Assembly (NCBI RefSeq): GCF_000744705.1
Contig: NZ_JQML01000001.1
Coordinates: 6,086,017-6,150,016, forward strand
Direction: 5' to 3'
Length of the DNA: 64,000 nucleotides
Source of the DNA: Streptacidiphilus albus JL83
Lineage (GTDB): Bacteria > Actinomycetota > Actinomycetes > Streptomycetales > Streptomycetaceae
Part shown: in pieces, positions 1 to 9,140 of the stretch
Position numbering within the stretch: position 1 is the stretch's first letter
Layout of the letters: every line of letters starts with the position of its first letter
The notes under the pieces: model-generated
Told to the model about the DNA's origin: nothing
What the model saw: the letters and a program-made list of their open reading frames with translations, nothing else
Database searches by the model: none
Made by a program: the position numbers and the translations under genes

Positions 1-782
1 CGTCCATCGACTTCGTGGTGATGGGCACCGCCACCCCGGACGCGCTGATGCCGGCCACCGTCAACATGGTCGCCGACCAGCTCGGCCTGGACCAGATTCC
101 CACCTACCAGCTGCAGTCCGGCTGCGCGGGCGCGGTCCAGGCCCTCGACCTGGCCCGGACCCTGGTCACCAGCACCGGCGGCACCGGGCTGGTGATCGGC
201 GGCGACGTCTGCAGCAAGCACCTCGACCTGCGCCGGGACCTCACCGCCGCCGCCCCGAGCGAACTGGTCAACTACGTCCTGTTCGGCGACGGCGCCGGAG
301 CCGTGCTGCTCGGCCCCGAGCCGACCGGTGAGGCGGTCGCGCTGCGTCGGGTGCTTAACCGCGTCACCGGGCTCGGGCGCAAGCCGGGACAGGTGATCGA
401 GTGGTTCGGCATGGCCGACCGGGACAGCGGGAAGCAGGCGATCAACGAGGACTACAAGGCGATCGAGGAGTCCGTCCCGGCCATGGCCGAGGAGATCCTT
501 TGGGAGCTGCTGGACGAACTCGGCTGGTCTGCCGACGAGTTGGACTACCTGCTGCCGCCCCAGCTGTCCGGGACGATGACCGCGAAGATCAACTCCAGGC
601 TCAATCTGCCCGGCGCCGTCGAGGTGTCCTGCGTCGCGGACACCGGTAACAACGGCAACGCCCTGCCCTTCCTGCAGACCGAGCTGCTGCTGAAGCAGAT
701 GACCAGCGGTCAGAAGGCCCTGGCCGTGGCGGTTGAGTCGAGCAAGTGGCTCAAGGCCGGATTCGCCCTGGAAAAGCTCTGA
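1..782 (+). CDS. KAS III (FabH)-like ketoacyl-ACP synthase, 5' end missing
   Basis: Partial gene: the reading frame is open from the first bases, so the N-terminus lies upstream of the window. About 260 C-terminal residues are visible, with the thiolase-fold nucleophile region SGCAGA (Cys codon at 123-125), the glycine-rich GDGAGAVLLG stretch, and a C-terminal GNNGNA region that matches the FabH active-site Asn segment. The FabH HQAN motif, which carries the catalytic His, reads PPQLS here (about 549-566), so that His position is Pro. The enzyme probably condenses or transfers an acyl group to or from a carrier protein; the ACP gene follows after about 70 bp. With the ACP and an E2-like acyltransferase next door, the set resembles tetronate-forming cassettes, but the FkbH-like glyceryl enzyme of those pathways would have to lie upstream. 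Family assignment is firm; substrate is unknown. Confidence 0.85.
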   Translation, partial: SIDFVVMGTATPDALMPATVNMVADQLGLDQIPTYQLQSGCAGAVQALDLARTLVTSTGGTGLVIGGDVCSKHLDLRRDLTAAAPSELVNYVLFGDGAGAVLLGPEPTGEAVALRRVLNRVTGLGRKPGQVIEWFGMADRDSGKQAINEDYKAIEESVPAMAEEILWELLDELGWSADELDYLLPPQLSGTMTAKINSRLNLPGAVEVSCVADTGNNGNALPFLQTELLLKQMTSGQKALAVAVESSKWLKAGFALEKL

Positions 783-851
783 CAGCCGCCCGTTCCCTGC
801 CCGTTCCCTGCCCGTTCCCGCCCGACCCGGCTATCCCAGGAGGAGAGCACT

Positions 852-1091
852 GTGACCGCTCCGATCGCCACGCCCGAGGACTATGTCGTGCTGCTGCGCG
901 ACGCCACCGGTCTGGACCTGGACCTTCCCGCACTCGAGAGCGACTTCGACTCCCTTCCCGGCTGGGACTCGCTGCACCTGCTGAAACTGGTCTCGGCCCT
1001 GGAGCGGGCCACCGGGCAGCGGATCCCGGTGGGCAGGGTCCTGGAGGCCCGCAGCCTGGAGCAGATCCGCCGGGTGGCGGTCGGCGCATGA
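852..1091 (+). CDS. Free-standing acyl carrier protein
   Basis: A 79-residue protein with the carrier motif GWDSLHLLKL; Ser40 is the predicted 4'-phosphopantetheine attachment site. Length and helix pattern fit a discrete ACP/PCP. The GTG start is set by an excellent Shine-Dalgarno (aggaggagag, 838-847) eight to ten bases upstream. Its stop overlaps the next start (ATGA at 1088-1091), so it is translationally coupled to the E2-like acyltransferase. A phosphopantetheinyl transferase two genes downstream could activate it. In tetronate systems such an ACP carries a glyceryl unit; that role is inference from the neighbours only. Confidence 0.88.
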   Translation: MTAPIATPEDYVVLLRDATGLDLDLPALESDFDSLPGWDSLHLLKLVSALERATGQRIPVGRVLEARSLEQIRRVAVGA

Positions 1092-1954
1092 CCGGGCCCC
1101 GGATCGTGCCGGTCCAGGGCCGCCGGCACACGGTCTACTTCCAGGAGTTCGCGGCCCGGCAGCGGGCGGTCTTCCTGGACACCGAGGTGGACATGGCGCG
1201 GGTGGAGGCCCACCGCGAGGCCGCCCGCGACGCCTCGGGCCGCACCTTCTCCCGGGTCAGCTACGTGCTGTTCGCGGTCGGCCGGGTGCTCGCCGAGTAC
1301 CCGGCCGCCAATGCGGTGATGGCCCCGGGCTGGCCCAGCCGCTGGCGCGCGCCGCGGGTCGCCCGCTACGACGGGGTCACCGCCAAACTGGCGCTGGACC
1401 GCGAACTGCAGGGCGAGCGCAGCGTGCTGTCGGCGCTGGTGCCCGGTGTCGAGCGGGCCGGCCTGGCCGAAATCCAGCAGCGGGTCGACCGCTACCGGGG
1501 CCCCGGCACCGACCAGCTGCCCGAGTTCGCCGGGGTGCGCAAGCTGGTCCGGCTGCCGGTGCCGCTGGGACGGCTGGCGTTCGGGCTGGCCATGCGCGAC
1601 CTCGCCCGCCGGGAGCAGGTCTTCGGCACCGTCTCGGTCAGCTCGCTCGGCCACGGCCAGGTGGACGGCTTCCACTCGGTCGGCGGCACCGCGCTCACCG
1701 TCAACCTCGGACGGGTCGTGGACCGTCCGGTGGTGCGGGACGGCGCGGTCGCCGTCGTCCCGGTCATGCGGCTGAACCTGGCCTTCGACCACCGTGTCGT
1801 GGACGGTGCCCTGGCTTCCGACGTGCTCGGCGCACTCAAGCAGCAACTGGAGGAATTCGATGACCGCAGCGGAGCGGAGCCGGTCGGTGCAGCCGTTCGG
1901 ACCGCTGATCAGGATCGCCGGCCGGGACGGGCCCTGGCACCGGATCGGCGCTGA
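1088..1954 (+). CDS. E2-like acyltransferase (2-oxoacid dehydrogenase catalytic domain only)
   Basis: A 288-residue protein matching the catalytic domain of dihydrolipoamide acyltransferases, with the active-site motif DHRVVDG near residue 235. It has no lipoyl domain and no peripheral-subunit-binding domain, so it is not a dehydrogenase-complex E2. Stand-alone proteins of this shape are known in tetronate and spirotetronate clusters, where they acetylate a glyceryl-derived tetronate hydroxyl. The start is the ATG of an ATGA overlap with the ACP stop. Its last 95 bases overlap the downstream phosphopantetheinyl transferase in another frame, so the tail after the catalytic core (about 25 residues, Arg/Asp/Pro-rich) is probably not conserved. 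The substrate cannot be read from the sequence. Confidence 0.82.
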   Translation: MTGPRIVPVQGRRHTVYFQEFAARQRAVFLDTEVDMARVEAHREAARDASGRTFSRVSYVLFAVGRVLAEYPAANAVMAPGWPSRWRAPRVARYDGVTAKLALDRELQGERSVLSALVPGVERAGLAEIQQRVDRYRGPGTDQLPEFAGVRKLVRLPVPLGRLAFGLAMRDLARREQVFGTVSVSSLGHGQVDGFHSVGGTALTVNLGRVVDRPVVRDGAVAVVPVMRLNLAFDHRVVDGALASDVLGALKQQLEEFDDRSGAEPVGAAVRTADQDRRPGRALAPDRR

Positions 1955-2738
1955 CCTGGCCGCGTACGGCACCGCGCTGGTCTACGCCCGCACCGGGGAC
2001 TGGCGGCCGGACCAGGCCCCCGGCCCCCGGCTCCGGGCCCTGCTGGGCCGGGACTGGAGCCGCTACCTGGACCTGTCCCGGCCGGACGTCAGGAACCGCT
2101 TCGCCGCCTCCCGGGTACTGCTCAAGTACGCGGCCGGGGCGGCGCTCCAGGTTGCACCGGAGTCCCTGGAGCTGGGCTACCGCTCCACCGGCCGCCCCTA
2201 TCTGCGCGGCAACGACGCGCTGGACATCAGCCTCAGCCACACCGAGGGGCTGCTCCTGGTCGGACTGACCACCAGTGGCTTCATCGGCGTCGACGTGGAG
2301 GACGCGCGCCGCGAGTTCCACGAGGCCGGCCTGGCACGGCACTGGTGCACCCCCGACGAACTGGCCCGGATCGAGGCGCTGGCGCCGGAGCTGCGCGACC
2401 CGGCACTGGTGCGGTTGTGGACGCTCAAGGAGTCCTACAGCAAGGCGCTCGGCCTCGGCATGCAGTTCCGCTTCACCGATTTCGGCTTCGACTACGAGCA
2501 CGACGGGCGGATCACCGCGCGCACCGTCGAGGACGCCCCGGTCGGCCCGAACGACTGGGCCTTCCAGAGCTATGCGCTGGACGACGACTTCACCGTCAGC
2601 TCGGCCGTCTACAACGTCGGCTTCGGCTCGACCGATGACACGGCGGCGCACACCATGCTCGACCTCAGCCTGTTCGACGCGGTCGCCTCCGTGCTCGGCG
2701 ACGAGGAGTCCGCGGCCGACGCCGGCGAGAGCTGGTGA
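1860..2738 (+). CDS. Sfp-type 4'-phosphopantetheinyl transferase
   Basis: A 292-residue protein with both signature motifs of the superfamily: GVDVED (about residues 142-147, Mg/CoA binding) and WTLKESYSKALGLGM (about 187-201, with the catalytic KE..K). It would transfer the phosphopantetheine arm of CoA to the Ser of a carrier protein, most obviously the ACP encoded just upstream. The start was moved inside the longer open frame because ggagg at 1849-1853 sits six bases before the ATG at 1860; this makes it overlap the acyltransferase gene by 95 bases. The C-terminal 60 or so residues after the core are acidic and lack a recognised domain. Confidence 0.88.
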   Translation: MTAAERSRSVQPFGPLIRIAGRDGPWHRIGADLAAYGTALVYARTGDWRPDQAPGPRLRALLGRDWSRYLDLSRPDVRNRFAASRVLLKYAAGAALQVAPESLELGYRSTGRPYLRGNDALDISLSHTEGLLLVGLTTSGFIGVDVEDARREFHEAGLARHWCTPDELARIEALAPELRDPALVRLWTLKESYSKALGLGMQFRFTDFGFDYEHDGRITARTVEDAPVGPNDWAFQSYALDDDFTVSSAVYNVGFGSTDDTAAHTMLDLSLFDAVASVLGDEESAADAGESW

Positions 2739-2878
2739 CCGGCGCGGGCGGCGGGGCGCGGCGCCACCGCGCTCGGACCCGCGCTTAGGCAGTACGCAAG
2801 TCCTCCAGGGCACGCTCGTTCGAAGCGGGGGCGGCTACTGACGGCGGCGCTCCGGACGAGGAAAGGCGGCCCGTTCCA

Positions 2879-4240
2879 GTGACCACGACCACAGCCGAAC
2901 TTCGCCCTTTGGACATGGCCTTCTGGAGCCTCGAGTCCGAAGCGGCGCCGCTGCACCTCGGTGCGCTGCTGCACTTCGGGCCCGGCGGAGCGCCGGACGC
3001 CGAGTCGCTGGTGTCCCTGCTCGCCGAACGCGCGGGCCGCTCGGCCCGCCTCCGCCAGCGGGTGCACGTGCCGTGGAACCCGCTGGACCCGCCGCGCTGG
3101 GTCGACGACCCCCGCTTCGCCGCCCGGCAGCACATCGGGGTCCACCCGCTGGAGGGTCCGGGCGCGCTGGAACGGGTCACTGCCGCGCTGATGGCGGCGC
3201 CGCTGCGGCGCGAGCTGCCGCCCTGGGAGATCCACCTCCTCACCGGCGGCGGACTCGCCCAGGGCTTCACCCTGCTGCTGAAGGTGCACCACGCGGCCGT
3301 GGACGGCCTGCGCGCGGTCGAGCTCGGGGTCAGGCTGCTGGACCGGCTGGAGGCGGACCGGCAACCCGCCCCCGAACCACCGCCGTCCCGACACCCGGGC
3401 CTGGCCGCCGGGTTGGCGGCGGGGCTGGACGGGTTCACCCGGCGTACCCTGCGCTCGGCCCGGGTCGCGGCCGAGGTCGCCACGGCCGTGGTCGGCAGCC
3501 GGGTCGCGGAGGGCTGGCGGCCGGTCGGTACACCGCTGCACACCGGCGCGACCGGGACCACGGGCGCGGTCGCCGGGGAGCGGGTCCTGGCGCTGCCGTC
3601 GCTCGCCACCCGCGACCTCCAGCTGATCCGCCGGGCGCACGGGGGCACCCTGCACGACATCGTCCTGGCCGTGGTCGCCGGCGGGCTGCGGCGCTGGTTC
3701 CTGGACCTGGGCCGCGACCCCGCGCTGCGCAGCACCCGCGTCCTGGTGCCGGTCAGCCAACGGGCCCGGACCGAGGACGCCGAGCAGGGCAACCAGCTCT
3801 CCGGATTCCTGGTCACCCTGCCGCTGGCCGAACCGGACCCGCTGATCCGGCTCTACCGGGTGCGGGAGGCGATGTCCGCGCACAAGGCGCGCGGTCCGCT
3901 GCGCGGCCCCGGCGCCGTCGCCACCCTGCCGGACCTGCTGCCGCCCGGGGTCCAGCGCTTCACCGGGCCGCTGCTGCGGCCCTCGGCCCCGCTGCTCTTC
4001 GACGCCCTGGTCACCGACGTCCCGCTGCCGGGCCTGCGGTTCACCCTCGCCGGAGCCCCGCTCACGGCCATGAACCCGCTGCCGCCGCTGGCCCAGGGCC
4101 ACACCCTCGCCATCGCGGCCAGCCGCTACCGCGACCGGGTGCACCTCGGCATCCACGGCGAGGCCGACCCCGACCGCGACCCCCGCGACCTCTCGGCCAT
4201 GCTCGCGGCCGAGGTCCGCACCCTGCTGCAGCTGTCCTGA
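2879..4240 (+). CDS. WS/DGAT-family O-acyltransferase
   Basis: A 453-residue protein of the wax ester synthase/diacylglycerol acyltransferase family. It shows the N-terminal PLDMAFWSLE signature and the catalytic HHAAVDG (HHxxxDG) at about residues 137-143. Known members move an acyl group from acyl-CoA to a long-chain alcohol or diacylglycerol; some in biosynthetic clusters acylate other alcohols. The GTG start has gaggaaagg upstream. It is separated by 140 bp from the phosphopantetheinyl transferase and faces the same way, so it may be the last gene of the cluster or an independent storage-lipid gene. Downstream sdaA converges on it. Confidence 0.85.
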   Translation: MTTTTAELRPLDMAFWSLESEAAPLHLGALLHFGPGGAPDAESLVSLLAERAGRSARLRQRVHVPWNPLDPPRWVDDPRFAARQHIGVHPLEGPGALERVTAALMAAPLRRELPPWEIHLLTGGGLAQGFTLLLKVHHAAVDGLRAVELGVRLLDRLEADRQPAPEPPPSRHPGLAAGLAAGLDGFTRRTLRSARVAAEVATAVVGSRVAEGWRPVGTPLHTGATGTTGAVAGERVLALPSLATRDLQLIRRAHGGTLHDIVLAVVAGGLRRWFLDLGRDPALRSTRVLVPVSQRARTEDAEQGNQLSGFLVTLPLAEPDPLIRLYRVREAMSAHKARGPLRGPGAVATLPDLLPPGVQRFTGPLLRPSAPLLFDALVTDVPLPGLRFTLAGAPLTAMNPLPPLAQGHTLAIAASRYRDRVHLGIHGEADPDRDPRDLSAMLAAEVRTLLQLS

Positions 4241-4310: not shown

Positions 4311-5678
4311 TCAGCACTCGATGACGTTGACCGCGAGGCCGCCCCGGGAGGTCTCCTTGTACTTGACCTTCATGTCGGCGCCGGTCTCCTTCATCGTCTT
4401 GATCGCCTTGTCCAGCGAGACGTGGTGGCGGCCGTCGCCGCGCAGCGCCATCCGGGCGGCGGTGACCGCCTTGACCGAGGCCATGCCGTTGCGCTCGATG
4501 CAGGGGATCTGGACCAGGCCGCCGACCGGGTCGCAGGTGAGGCCGAGGTTGTGCTCGATGCCGATCTCGGCGGCGTTCTCGACCTGCTCCGGGGTGCCGC
4601 CGAGGACCTCGGCCAGGCCGCCGGCCGCCATGGAGCAGGCCGAGCCGACCTCGCCCTGGCAGCCGACCTCGGCGCCGGAGATCGAGGCGTTCTCCTTGAA
4701 GAGCATCCCGATCGCGCCGGCGGTCAGCAGGAAGCGGACGATGCCGTCGTCGTCCGCGCCCTGGATGAAGTTCAGGTAGTAGTGCAGGACCGCCGGGATG
4801 ATGCCGGCCGCGCCGTTGGTCGGGGCGGTGACCACCCGGCCGCCGGCCGCGTTCTCCTCGTTCACGGCCATCGCGTAGAGGGTGACCCACTCCATCGCGT
4901 TGGCCGGGCTGATGCCCTCGGTGCGCAGGGCCCGGGAGGCGGGGGCGGCGCGGCGGCGGACCTTGAGGCCGCCGGGCAGGATGCCCTCGTGGTTCATCCC
5001 GGCGCGGACGCACTCCTGCATCACGTCCCAGATCGCCAGCAGGCCGGAGCGGATCTCGTCCTCGGTGCGCCAGGCCTTCTCGTTCTCCAGCATCAACGAG
5101 GAGACGGACAGGCCGGTCTCGGAGGCCAGCCGCAGCAGCTCGGCGCCGGTCCGGAACGGGTAGCGGAGCACGGTGTCGTCGGGCTTGACCCGGTCCGCGC
5201 CGATGGCGTCCTCGTCGACGACGAAGCCGCCGCCGACCGAGTAGTAGGTCTTCTCCAGCAGCGGCGCGCCCTCGGCGTCGAAGGCCGCGAGGGTCATCCC
5301 GTTGGCGTGGTACGGCAGCGAGCGGCGGCGGTGGAGTATCAGCTGGGTGTCGGGGTCGAAGGCGATCCCGTGGTCGCCGAGGAGCGAGAGCCGCCGGTCG
5401 GCCTTGATCCGTTCGACGTCCAGGTCGGCCTTGGCGATGTCCACGGTGCGCGGGGAGTTGCCCTCCAGCCCCAGCAGGACGGCCTTCGGGGTGCCGTGGC
5501 CGTGGCCGGTCGCGCCCAGCGAGCCGAAGAGCTCGGCCCGGAGCGAGACGGTCTGGGCGAGCAGGCCCTCGGACTTCAGCCGGCGCGCGAACATCCGCGC
5601 CGCCCGCATCGGTCCGACCGTGTGGGAGCTGGACGGCCCGATGCCGATGGAGAAGAGGTCGAAGACGCTGATGGCCAC
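4311..5678 (-). CDS. sdaA: L-serine ammonia-lyase, single-chain iron-sulfur type
   Basis: A 455-residue serine deaminase converting L-serine to pyruvate and ammonia. The N-terminal beta subdomain ([15 protein letters not shown]) and the C-terminal alpha subdomain ([15 protein letters not shown], then cysteines in LTCDPVGG and IPCIERN that bind the iron-sulfur cluster) are both present in one chain. The start is GTG (cac at 5676-5678 on the top strand). It lies 239 bp downstream of glyA on the same strand, behind a strong hairpin, and so may have its own promoter. It ends the serine/glycine gene group. Confidence 0.95.
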
Positions 5679-5793
5679 GGGAGACGCCCTTGTCTTGGTG
5701 GTGGGGGTGCGGTGCCGGGAAGGGCCCGAGGTCGGGGCCCGGTGGCGCGGTTGCGCGGGTGCGCGCGGGAACGAGTTGCGCGGGTCGGGTACG

Positions 5794-5838
5794 TGCGGCG
5801 GGGCACCGGCCCACTGTCCAGTGTGCGCGGTGCCCCGC
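5794..5838 (-). terminator. Hairpin between glyA and sdaA
   Basis: Outer arms 5794-5806 and 5826-5838 (CGGCGGGGCACCG with CGGTGCCCCGCCG) are perfectly complementary over 13 bp, with an inner CACTG/CAGTG pair. There is no T-tract, as is usual in this window. It probably terminates or attenuates transcription leaving glyA before sdaA. Confidence 0.6.
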
Positions 5839-5917
5839 CGAATGGATCCGGATCCGGTCCGGAACGGCTCCCGAACAGCGTCGGAACAGTTCGCTACGGA
5901 CCGGCCGGAGCCGGGGC

Positions 5918-7186
5918 CTACAGGCCCGGGTAGAGCGGGTGCTTCTCGGCCAGGGCGGTGACCCGGGCGGCGAGGGCCGACTTCACGGTCTCGTCGAAGG
6001 AGGGCTTGAGCGCCTCCGCGATGATGTCCGCGACCTCGGTGAAGTCCTCGGCGCCGAAGCCGCGGGTGGCCAGCGCCGGGGCGCCGATCCGCAGGCCGGA
6101 GGTGACCATCGGCGGACGGGGGTCGAACGGGATGGCGTTGCGGTTGACGGTGATGCCCACCGAGTGCAGCCGGTCCTCGGCCTGCTGGCCGTCGAGCTCC
6201 GAGTTGCGCAGGTCGACCAGGACCAGGTGGACGTCGGTGCCGCCGGACAGCACGGAGACGCCGGCCGCCGTGGCGTCCGGCTGGGTGAGCCGGTCGGCGA
6301 GGATCTTCGCGCCCTCAAGGGTGCGCTGCTGGCGGTCCTTGAACTCCTCCGTCGCGGCGACCTTGAAGGCCACCGCCTTGGCGGCGATCACGTGCTCCAG
6401 CGGACCGCCCTGCTGGCCGGGGAAGACCGCGGAGTTGATCTTCTTGGCGTACTCGGCCTTGGAGAGGATCACGCCGCCGCGGGGGCCGCCGAGGGTCTTG
6501 TGGGTGGTGGTGGTGACCACGTCGGCGTAGGGCACGGGGGAGGGGTGCAGCCCCGCCGCGACCAGGCCGGCGAAGTGCGCCATGTCCACCATCAGCAGCG
6601 CGCCGACCGAGTCGGCGATCCGGCGGAAGGCGGCGAAGTCGAGCTGGCGCGGGTAGGCGGACCAGCCGGCGATGATCAGCTGCGGCTGGTGCTCCTTGGC
6701 GAGGCGCTCGACCTCGTCCATGTCGACCAGGTTGGTCTCCGGGTCGACGTGGTACGCGGCCACGTTGTACAGCTTGCCGGAGAAGTTGATCTTCATGCCG
6801 TGGGTCAGGTGACCGCCGTGGGCCAGGTCCAGGCCCAGGATCGTGTCGCCCGGCTTGATCAGCGCGAACATCGCGGCGGCGTTGGCCGACGCGCCCGAGT
6901 GCGGCTGGACGTTGGCGTGCTCGGCGCCGAACAGCGCCTTGACCCGGTCGATCGCCAGCTGCTCGACCACGTCGACGTGCTCGCAGCCGCCGTAGTAGCG
7001 GCGGCCGGGGTAGCCCTCGGCGTACTTGTTGGTCAGCACCGAGCCCTGTGCCTCCAGCACCGCGACCGGGGCGAAGTTCTCGGAGGCGATCATCTCCAGG
7101 GTGGACTGCTGGCGGTGCAGCTCGGCGTCCACGGCGGCGGCGACCTCGGGGTCGAGCTCGTGCAGAGACTGGTTCAGAACCGTCAT
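5918..7186 (-). CDS. glyA: Serine hydroxymethyltransferase
   Basis: A 422-residue PLP enzyme interconverting serine and glycine with tetrahydrofolate. The family landmarks are clear: [10 protein letters not shown] near the N-terminus, [17 protein letters not shown], and the PLP-lysine segment [16 protein letters not shown]. The ATG has a GAGGAA ribosome site. It sits only 30 bp downstream of gcvH on the same strand, so it is probably part of the riboswitch-controlled gcvT-gcvH-glyA transcript, linking glycine cleavage with one-carbon supply. Confidence 0.97.
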
Positions 7187-7216
7187 GGTGTTCTTCCTCG
7201 GAGAGGTCTGGAGTGC

Positions 7217-7594
7217 TCAGGCGCCGGTGTGGGCGGAGTACTCGTCGGCGGTCAGCAGGCCCTCGGGCGTGCCGTCGAGGCGGATCTTGAACAGCCAGCC
7301 CTCGGTGAAGGAAGCGGAGTTGACCAGCGACGGGTCGTCCACCACGGCCTGGTTCGCCTCGACGACCTCGCCGGTCGCGGGGGAGTACAGGTCGCTGACC
7401 GACTTGGTCGACTCCAGCTCACCGCAGGTCTCGCCCGCGGTCACGGTGTCGCCGACCTCGGGAAGCTGCACGTAGACCACGTCACCGAGCGCGTTGGCGG
7501 CGAAGGCGGTGATGCCCACGGTCGACACGCCGTCCTCGGCGGTCGTCAGCCACTCGTGTTCCTTGCTGTACGTGAGGTGCTGGGGGTTGCTCAT
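7217..7594 (-). CDS. gcvH: Glycine cleavage system H protein
   Basis: A 125-residue lipoyl carrier of the glycine cleavage complex; ESTKSVSD holds the lipoylated lysine. The longer open frame was trimmed to the ATG at 7594 because the family starts close to [10 protein letters not shown] and a GGAG site lies just before it. It follows gcvT by 95 bp and precedes glyA by 30 bp. The P protein (gcvP) is not in the window. Confidence 0.96.
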
Positions 7595-7689
7595 GGTGTC
7601 GATTCTCCAGGATGAGGTACGGGAACGGCGAAACGGGTCGCCCACCGTCCAGGTGGTGGACGGCGGCGGGGGAGCGGCGCTGCGGTGGG

Positions 7690-8838
7690 TCAGCGGGCGC
7701 GCTTGTAGAACGGCAGGGCGACGACCCCGACCGGCTCGTGGCTGCCGCGGACGTCCACGGCGACGGTGCTGCCCGGCTCGGCGTGCGCGGCGTCCACATA
7801 GGCCATCGCGATCGGCTTGCCCAGCGTCGGCGAGGGCGCGCCGGAGGTGATCGAGCCGATGACGGTGCCGTCGGTCGCCGACACCACGTCCATCCCGGCA
7901 CGCGGCACCCGGCGTCCGGGCGAGACCAGGCCGACCAGGACCCGCGGCGGCTGGGCGGCGGCCTCGGCGGCGGCCTTCTCCAGCGCCACCCGGCCGACGA
8001 AGTCCCCGCCGTTGGTGGTCTTGTCGAAGCGGACGACCCGGCCCAGGCCGGCGTCGAAGGGGGTGAGCGAGGTGGTCAGCTCGTGGCCGTAGAGCGGCAT
8101 GCCGGCCTCCAGCCGCAGGGTGTCGCGGCAGGACAGCCCGCAGGGGACCAGTCCGGACCCGGCGCCCGCCGCCGTCAGGGCCTCCCAGAGCGCCACCGCG
8201 TCACCGGGCGCGACGAACAGCTCGAAGCCGTCCTCGCCGGTGTAGCCGGTGCGGGCGAGAAGTGCCGGGCGGCCGGCCACGGTGGTCGGCAGGGCGGTGT
8301 AGTACTTCAGCGCCGGCAGGTCGGCCTCGGTGAGCGGGGCGAGGATGCCGGTCGCCTCCGGGCCCTGGATCGCGATCAGCGCGTAGGCGTCGCGGTCGTC
8401 GCGGACCACGGCGTCGAAGCCGGCCGCGCGCTCGGTCAGCGCGTCCAGGACCACCTGGGCGTTGGAGGCGTTGGCGACGACCAGGAACTCGGTCTCGCCG
8501 GTGCGGTAGACGATCAGGTCGTCCAGGATGCCGCCGTCCGGGGCACAGATCATGGTGTAGCGGGCGCGGTTCACGCCCAGCGCGGAGACGAAGCCGACCA
8601 GCGCGTGGTCGAGCAGCTCGCCCGCCTGGGGGCCGGTGAGGGTGATCTCGCCCATGTGGGAGAGGTCGAACAGGCCGGCCCGGTTGCGGACGGCGAGGTG
8701 CTCCTCGCGCTCGCTGCCGTAGCGCAGCGGCATGTCCCAGCCGGCGAAGTCGGTCATGGTGGCGCCCAGGGCGCGGTGCACGGCGTCCAGCGCGGTGAGG
8801 CGCAAGGGCGCAGCGGCGGTCGAATCGGGGGACGACAT
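7690..8838 (-). CDS. gcvT: Glycine cleavage system T protein (aminomethyltransferase)
   Basis: A 382-residue folate-dependent aminomethyltransferase. The start at 8838 ([10 protein letters not shown]) was chosen over the longer frame because it has GAGGAG upstream and the frame above it runs through the riboswitch. Landmarks include [20 protein letters not shown], the folate-site [10 protein letters not shown], and [10 protein letters not shown]. As the first gene below the riboswitch it should be induced by excess glycine. Confidence 0.96.
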
Positions 8839-8894
8839 GGAAAGGACTCCTCGGTGCTCTCGGACAGGCGCATGCAGGGCATGCCGCAGCGGGG

Positions 8895-9140
8895 CTCTCC
8901 CCCTCTGTCGCTGCAACCTGAGAGCTTCACCGGGCGCCCGCCGGAGAACGGGGACGCGCGGCTTGCACCGTTGGTGGGCCTGCCCCGGGCGTACGCCCGC
9001 GGTCGACCACTTTCCAGATGTGCCTCGCCCGTGCGGTAGCTGTGCCTGAGAGTTTCCGGGGAGGGCTTGCTCCTTCGGCGCCGACTGCAACCCCGCTCCC
9101 GCCGGGGGAGGTGGGGCTGGCCTGGCTCTCCCGCGCGGGT
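8895..9140 (-). promoter_or_regulatory. Tandem glycine riboswitch upstream of gcvT
   Basis: Read on the minus strand, the first aptamer (about 9040-9140) begins GGGAGAGCC, contains the core CGCCGAAGGAGCAAGCC and ends CTCTCAGGCA. The second aptamer (about 8895-9010) contains ACGGTGCAAGCC and ends CTCTCAGGTTGCAGCGACAG followed by a G-run. These are the hallmark conserved blocks of the two-aptamer glycine riboswitch. Position directly before gcvT and the same strand support glycine-induced expression of gcvT-gcvH-glyA. The exact transcript start and expression platform were not resolved. Confidence 0.92.

Follow-up and report, generated by a model that had tools for sequence, protein, structure and literature searches.

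Described tetronate systems and the present locus

The tetronate is a small ring present in several antibiotics, and tetronates include phosphatase inhibitors as well as antibiotics. Every tetronate cluster sequenced up to 2016 contains FkbH, an ACP, and a FabH-like protein (PMC4979870). In many tetronate clusters, the acetyltransferase Agg4 and the eliminase Agg5 are added, forming a glycerate-utilization operon (PMC7489565), and in the abyssomicin producer, mutation of abmA5 causes the acetyl-tetronate to accumulate (PMC5819245).

The locus analyzed here lies at the start of a 64,000-nucleotide stretch (the window; G000:C1:6086017-6150016) of the 9.9-Mb single-contig genome of Streptacidiphilus albus JL83, whose glyA is 93% identical to that of Streptacidiphilus sp. 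4-A2, the nearest among the genomes compared. Compared by published descriptions (PMC4979870 and PMC5819245), the RK-682 pathway (RkD KAS III, RkE FkbH, and RkF ACP) follows the same fatty-chain 3-acyl tetronate logic, to which the locus adds two acyl dehydrogenases (ACADs), an E2-type O-acyltransferase (E2), a P450, a WS/DGAT-like O-acyltransferase, and DpsC-like acyltransferases. With the glycerate-utilization operons of agglomerin (agg1-5), abyssomicin (abyA1-A5), and tetromadurin (mad7/8/16/17/18), it shares KAS III, FkbH, ACP, and E2, whereas it has neither an Agg5/AbmA5-type eliminase nor a modular PKS, carries two glyceryl-type ACPs, and has FkbH-ACP placed 17 kb from KAS III-ACP-E2. 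The operons of the fatty acyl-AMP ligase (FAAL) type found on plasmids in Streptomyces sp. NBC_00826 and NBC_01276 share FAAL-ACAD-ACP-KSAT-KASIII, FkbH, ACP, and a phosphopantetheinyl transferase (PPTase) with the locus; unlike it, they carry a single ACAD, enclose FkbH within the operon, and lack E2, WS/DGAT, and an FAD enzyme of subtype I. A literature search confined to open-access rather than subscription papers found no described cluster with the same gene set.

Genes at the window edge

The 54 kb upstream of the window were fetched and genes were called there; gene content, order, family membership, active-site motifs, phylogeny, co-occurrence, and the absence of Agg5 were read directly in the analysis. 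On this gene content, window positions 1-4240 are very likely the 3'-terminal part of a ~38.5-kb gene cluster for tetronate biosynthesis (G000:C1:6051718-6090256, corresponding to window -34298 to 4240). A tetronate is very probably the product class, and it is predicted to be made from a fatty acid.

The original prediction had placed KAS III-like, discrete ACP, E2, and PPTase genes together at the window edge with a WS/DGAT gene downstream, and all four proved genuine and colinear on the plus strand. The 5' end of the KAS III gene is cut by the window edge (3' part at window 3-782), and the full gene (G000:C1:6085776-6086798, plus strand, 340 aa) starts 241 bases before the window. It is followed by the discrete glyceryl-ACP-like carrier ACP3 (852-1091; Pfam PP-binding, E 3e-7; DSL motif), the Agg4-like E2 (1088-1954; 2-oxoacid_dh, E 2e-16; DHRVVDG motif), and the Sfp-type phosphopantetheinyl transferase PPT1 (1860-2738; ACPS, E 8e-18; GVDVE and WTLKESYSK motifs), with the WS/DGAT-like gene next on the same strand (2879-4240; WS_DGAT_cat, E 4e-34; HHAAVDG motif). 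Catalytic motifs were intact in ACP3, E2, PPT1, and WS/DGAT, the last of which scored 282 against TIGR02946, below the curated cut-off of 310. The ACP3 and E2 genes share a 4-nt overlap (ATGA), and PPT1, whose start at 1860 is served by a GGAGG ribosome site, overlaps the end of E2 by 95 nt. The gene order at the window edge was repeated in several other genomes at 54-86% identity, and this recurrence exceeds chance.

The WS/DGAT gene was kept directly downstream of PPT1 in the genomes G012 and G008 only, and G235 has its Agg5 in this place. Because of this conservation in two other species, WS/DGAT is probably part of the cluster. On its window side, the cluster is bounded by minus-strand genes reading as sdaA, glyA, gcvH, and gcvT of serine/glycine metabolism (window 4311-8940), which are unrelated housekeeping genes and do not adjoin the cluster in G012 or G008.

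The KAS III groups with tetronate-forming enzymes

By sequence, the best solved match of the KAS III was 5by7 (E 1.3e-115), followed by a FabH (E 2.3e-30). According to the PDB, 5by7 is AbyA1, the abyssomicin tetronic acid condensing enzyme, to which the KAS III is about 58% identical, and a predicted structure of the portion inside the window (mean pLDDT 80) again had 5by7 as first PDB match at 58% identity. In a maximum-likelihood tree, the KAS III fell in a clade with AbyA1 whose members mostly adjoin FkbH, apart from FabH (support 99/98) and from DpsC/CerJ-like proteins. A placement outside the tetronate clade, which would have spoken against the original prediction of a tetronate-like gene set, was not seen, and the grouping of the KAS III with AbyA1 and FkbH-adjacent enzymes, together with the FkbH found upstream, upholds that prediction. 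The catalytic Cys122 and the FabH-type Asn (N297) were invariant across the 16 aligned clade members, and all 16, as well as AbyA1, have PPQL at the position of the FabH catalytic-His motif PHQAN. Judging from this alignment, PPQL instead of PHQAN is a trait of the whole tetronate KAS III clade and not peculiar to the window.

Several ring types are made by KAS III-like enzymes, and weak HMM matches linked this one to StlD/DarB, so that a pyrone, resorcinol, or butenolide could be considered as the ring formed in place of a tetronate. This is extremely improbable, as AbyA1 is far nearer to the KAS III than other solved enzymes (E 1e-115 versus 1e-6 for StlD and 2e-9 for CorB) and the clade is accompanied throughout by FkbH, a glyceryl-type ACP, and E2.

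Genes upstream of the window

A KS-AT PKS protein (6082718-6085696) is encoded immediately upstream of KAS III, in keeping with the PKS expected there by the original prediction, with the KS motifs TACS, EGHGTGT, and NLGHT and an AT GHSVG motif combined with HAFH of the malonyl type. Its C-terminal FDSVM stretch resembles a carrier domain, and Pfam called none there. Preceding it are the genes for P450 (6075736-6076950), FAAL (6077082-6078821), ACAD1 (6078825-6080615), ACAD2 (6080612-6082372), and ACP2 (6082425-6082721), so that FAAL, ACADs, ACP, and KS-AT directly upstream of KAS III offer a source of the beta-ketoacyl thioester.

The FkbH-like protein also sought upstream was found at 6067226-6069106 (TIGR01686, E 9.5e-93; DLDNT and LSCRV motifs). 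It is the sole FkbH in the genome, and none was found in any of 14 control genomes. It lies away from KAS III, whereas most tetronate operons have the two genes side by side, and is adjoined by its own glyceryl-ACP-like carrier ACP1 (6069103-6069327). Both ACP1 and ACP3 grouped with cassette ACPs, and each is separately conserved. The locus thus holds FkbH, a discrete glyceryl ACP, a tetronate-clade FabH-like enzyme, and a beta-ketoacyl source, by which a tetronate cluster is recognized. A role of FkbH in methoxymalonyl-ACP formation was rejected, as no partner dehydrogenase or O-methyltransferase genes were seen nearby and its closest relatives stand in tetronate cassettes. A link to foxicin was also rejected, the foxicin FkbH being a domain of a PKS-NRPS (PMC5318452).

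Further upstream, two KAS III-like (DpsC-like) acyltransferases (starting at 6064949 and 6066088; DpsC matches, E 1e-68 and 4e-58) have Ser at the nucleophile position as in DpsC, in contrast to Cys in CerJ and ChlB3 (compare PMC9573744). They are preceded by an FAD oxidoreductase of subtype I (6063529-6064800; L149:3529-4800), an SRPBCC cyclase-like protein (6063025), a type II thioesterase (6062183), a 306-aa alpha/beta hydrolase with a GHSLGG motif (6061266), a second PPTase (6060135), and BTAD/SARP-type regulators with an AfsA-like protein (6052302-6059975). A second FAAL-ACAD-PPTase set, 42-45% identical to that of the cluster, lies 157 kb upstream (L011:4394-8843, genome 5925394-5929843); the 16 kb read there yielded no match to KAS III, FkbH, KS-AT, or E2. 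Beyond the original prediction, the gene content points to three further features: the lack of an Agg5-type eliminase, priming of the chain by FAAL in place of assembly by a modular PKS, and a second glyceryl-type ACP.

Related clusters in other genomes

In the same set of 150 relatives, 31 genomes had KAS III, 32 had FkbH, and 30 had both (Fisher p about 4e-28, relatedness uncorrected). The presence of E2 and PPTase in relatives was assessed by tblastn, the GC-frame gene caller having missed some, and a contig scan with the generic pattern LFGDGAGA gave five informative named loci. An operon of the form FAAL-(ACAD)-ACP-KSAT-KASIII-FkbH-ACP-(E2)-PPTase recurred in many actinomycetes, including the NBC_00826 and NBC_01276 plasmids. 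FAAL-less cassettes (G030, G105, and G009), several of them beside larger PKSs, consisted of KASIII-FkbH-ACP-E2-Agg5-like hydrolase. Because these are without PPT1, a dedicated PPTase is a companion of the FAAL type; it was present as predicted and accompanies FAAL-type tetronate clusters generally rather than being peculiar to this cluster.

As a whole, the cluster is common to G012 and G008 at about 56-86% identity, and this trio shares the two glyceryl-type ACPs, the distance between FkbH-ACP1 and KASIII-ACP3-E2, and the WS/DGAT gene downstream. Close relatives of it occur in G038, G235, G289, G239, G427, and on the NBC_01435 plasmid. Cassettes of KASIII-FkbH-ACP-E2 were also seen on plasmids of the methanotroph Methylosinus trichosporium OB3b (L146:10007-16208) and the bacillus Pseudalkalibacillus (L145:9944-18574).

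Absence of Agg5 and the associated FAD oxidoreductase

In most comparable clusters, an Agg5-type alpha/beta hydrolase eliminates the acyl group to give an exocyclic methylene. An Agg5-like protein profile built from ten cassette-linked sequences scored about 390-560 bits in most relatives with E2, the nearest ones (G038, G235, G239, G289, and G427) among them. It had no match in the 118 kb around the cluster, and genome-wide searches of the window genome, G012, and G008 returned only generic hydrolases of at most 53 bits, far from the cluster. The Agg4-like E2 of agglomerin/spirotetronate-type (exomethylene) clusters is thus present at window 1088-1954 and their Agg5-like eliminase is absent, which leaves the five-gene glycerate-utilization set incomplete. 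As Agg5 is present in nearly all comparable clusters, the product is likely finished differently here.

In 395 Streptomycetaceae genomes, E2 was found in 57, an Agg5-like protein in 54, and both in 49. The eight genomes with E2 and no Agg5 were the window genome, G012, and G008, and five carrying a divergent cassette (G003, G195, G198, G231, and G273). One FAD oxidoreductase subtype (support 100/100), with members 63-79% identical to the protein encoded at 6063529-6064800, was present in all eight. Among 34 searched genomes with both E2 and Agg5, it occurred in G219 and G229 only, beside a second, Agg5-less cassette. In six of the seven divergent cassettes (G003, G195, G198, G219, G229, G231, and G273; L159-L164 and L169), the FAD gene directly follows E2, in the slot held by Agg5 in G427. 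This association is a lead and not proof, because it is drawn from about two independent lineages and the Methylosinus plasmid cassette carries both the FAD oxidoreductase and Agg5 genes. The near-exact exchange of Agg5 for one flavoenzyme subtype across Streptomycetaceae genomes yields a specific, testable hypothesis of a new tailoring step. The best solved match of the FAD oxidoreductase was the flavin monooxygenase 8uiu (E 3e-29); a PyrE3/TedJ-type Diels-Alderase was considered and rejected, no such match having been obtained, and the halogenase motif WxWxIP was not found in the protein.

Tailoring without an Agg5-type elimination is given about even chances on these gene patterns. An agglomerin-type end, with the gene swapped and the chemistry unchanged, is a doubtful alternative, in which E2 would acetylate the hydroxymethyl group and the 306-aa hydrolase or the FAD enzyme would eliminate acetate to give a 5-methylene tetronate. 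The E2 is of the Agg4/AbmA4 type, which acts in acetylation-elimination (PMC5819245), and the hydrolase, which carries a GHSLGG motif, shows 82-83% conservation in G012 and G008 and was not found in related Agg5-bearing clusters. However, it has no recognizable relation to Agg5, and it does not explain the other Agg5-less cassettes because it is absent from them. Agg5-like hydrolases without E2 were observed in FAAL-type tetronate clusters of G043, G186, G335, G385, and G451, and also in Streptomyces sp. uw30 (L063) and on an S. chartreusis plasmid (L147).

FAAL-type clusters with neither E2 nor Agg5 (G050, G078, G071, and S. spiralis) indicate that E2 is not needed for the ring, and E2 might then be a leftover without a role, the product being a plain RK-682-like 5-hydroxymethyl tetronate. 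This is unlikely, since E2 is 67-71% conserved in the trio, keeps DHRVVDG intact, and has its translation coupled to that of the ACP and PPTase genes.

Predicted pathway and product

By analogy with characterized homologs, the two PPTases would activate the carriers, FAAL would load a fatty acid onto ACP2, the two ACADs would desaturate the carrier-bound fatty acid, and KS-AT(-ACP) with its HAFH motif would add one malonyl unit, leaving a beta-ketoacyl thioester because no reductive domain is present. FkbH, like its named homologs, would form glyceryl-ACP, and KAS III would join the beta-ketoacyl and glyceryl units via C-C and C-O bonds, releasing a 3-acyl-5-hydroxymethyl tetronate. An RK-682-like compound of this kind with an unsaturated fatty chain is the most likely product predicted.

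E2 would acylate the 5-hydroxymethyl group, as its characterized homologs suggest, and most likely, albeit speculatively, the O-acyl ester would be kept or be processed by the subtype-I FAD oxidoreductase. The compound predicted from the cluster is an unsaturated acyl tetronate primed with a fatty acid, and its 5-position would be finished without the textbook eliminase. A tentative elaboration is that acetylation-elimination was replaced here and, separately, in the second cassette group, with the subtype-I FAD oxidoreductase acting after E2 and the C5 side group oxidized or kept as an ester rather than turned into an exocyclic methylene; with two glyceryl-type ACPs and with DpsC-like acyltransferases next to FkbH, attachment of a second glycerate-derived unit would also be feasible. 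Oxidation and additional acylation steps would fall to P450, WS/DGAT, and the two DpsC-like acyltransferases, the roles of the latter three being speculative.

The AfsA/SARP genes would regulate the cluster, which is small enough to express heterologously, and the product would be exported by an MMPL transporter (6069496) and an MFS transporter (6074048-6075480; L149:14048-15480). The MFS gene is split in this assembly by a frameshift, either a mutation or an assembly error, and is intact in G012.
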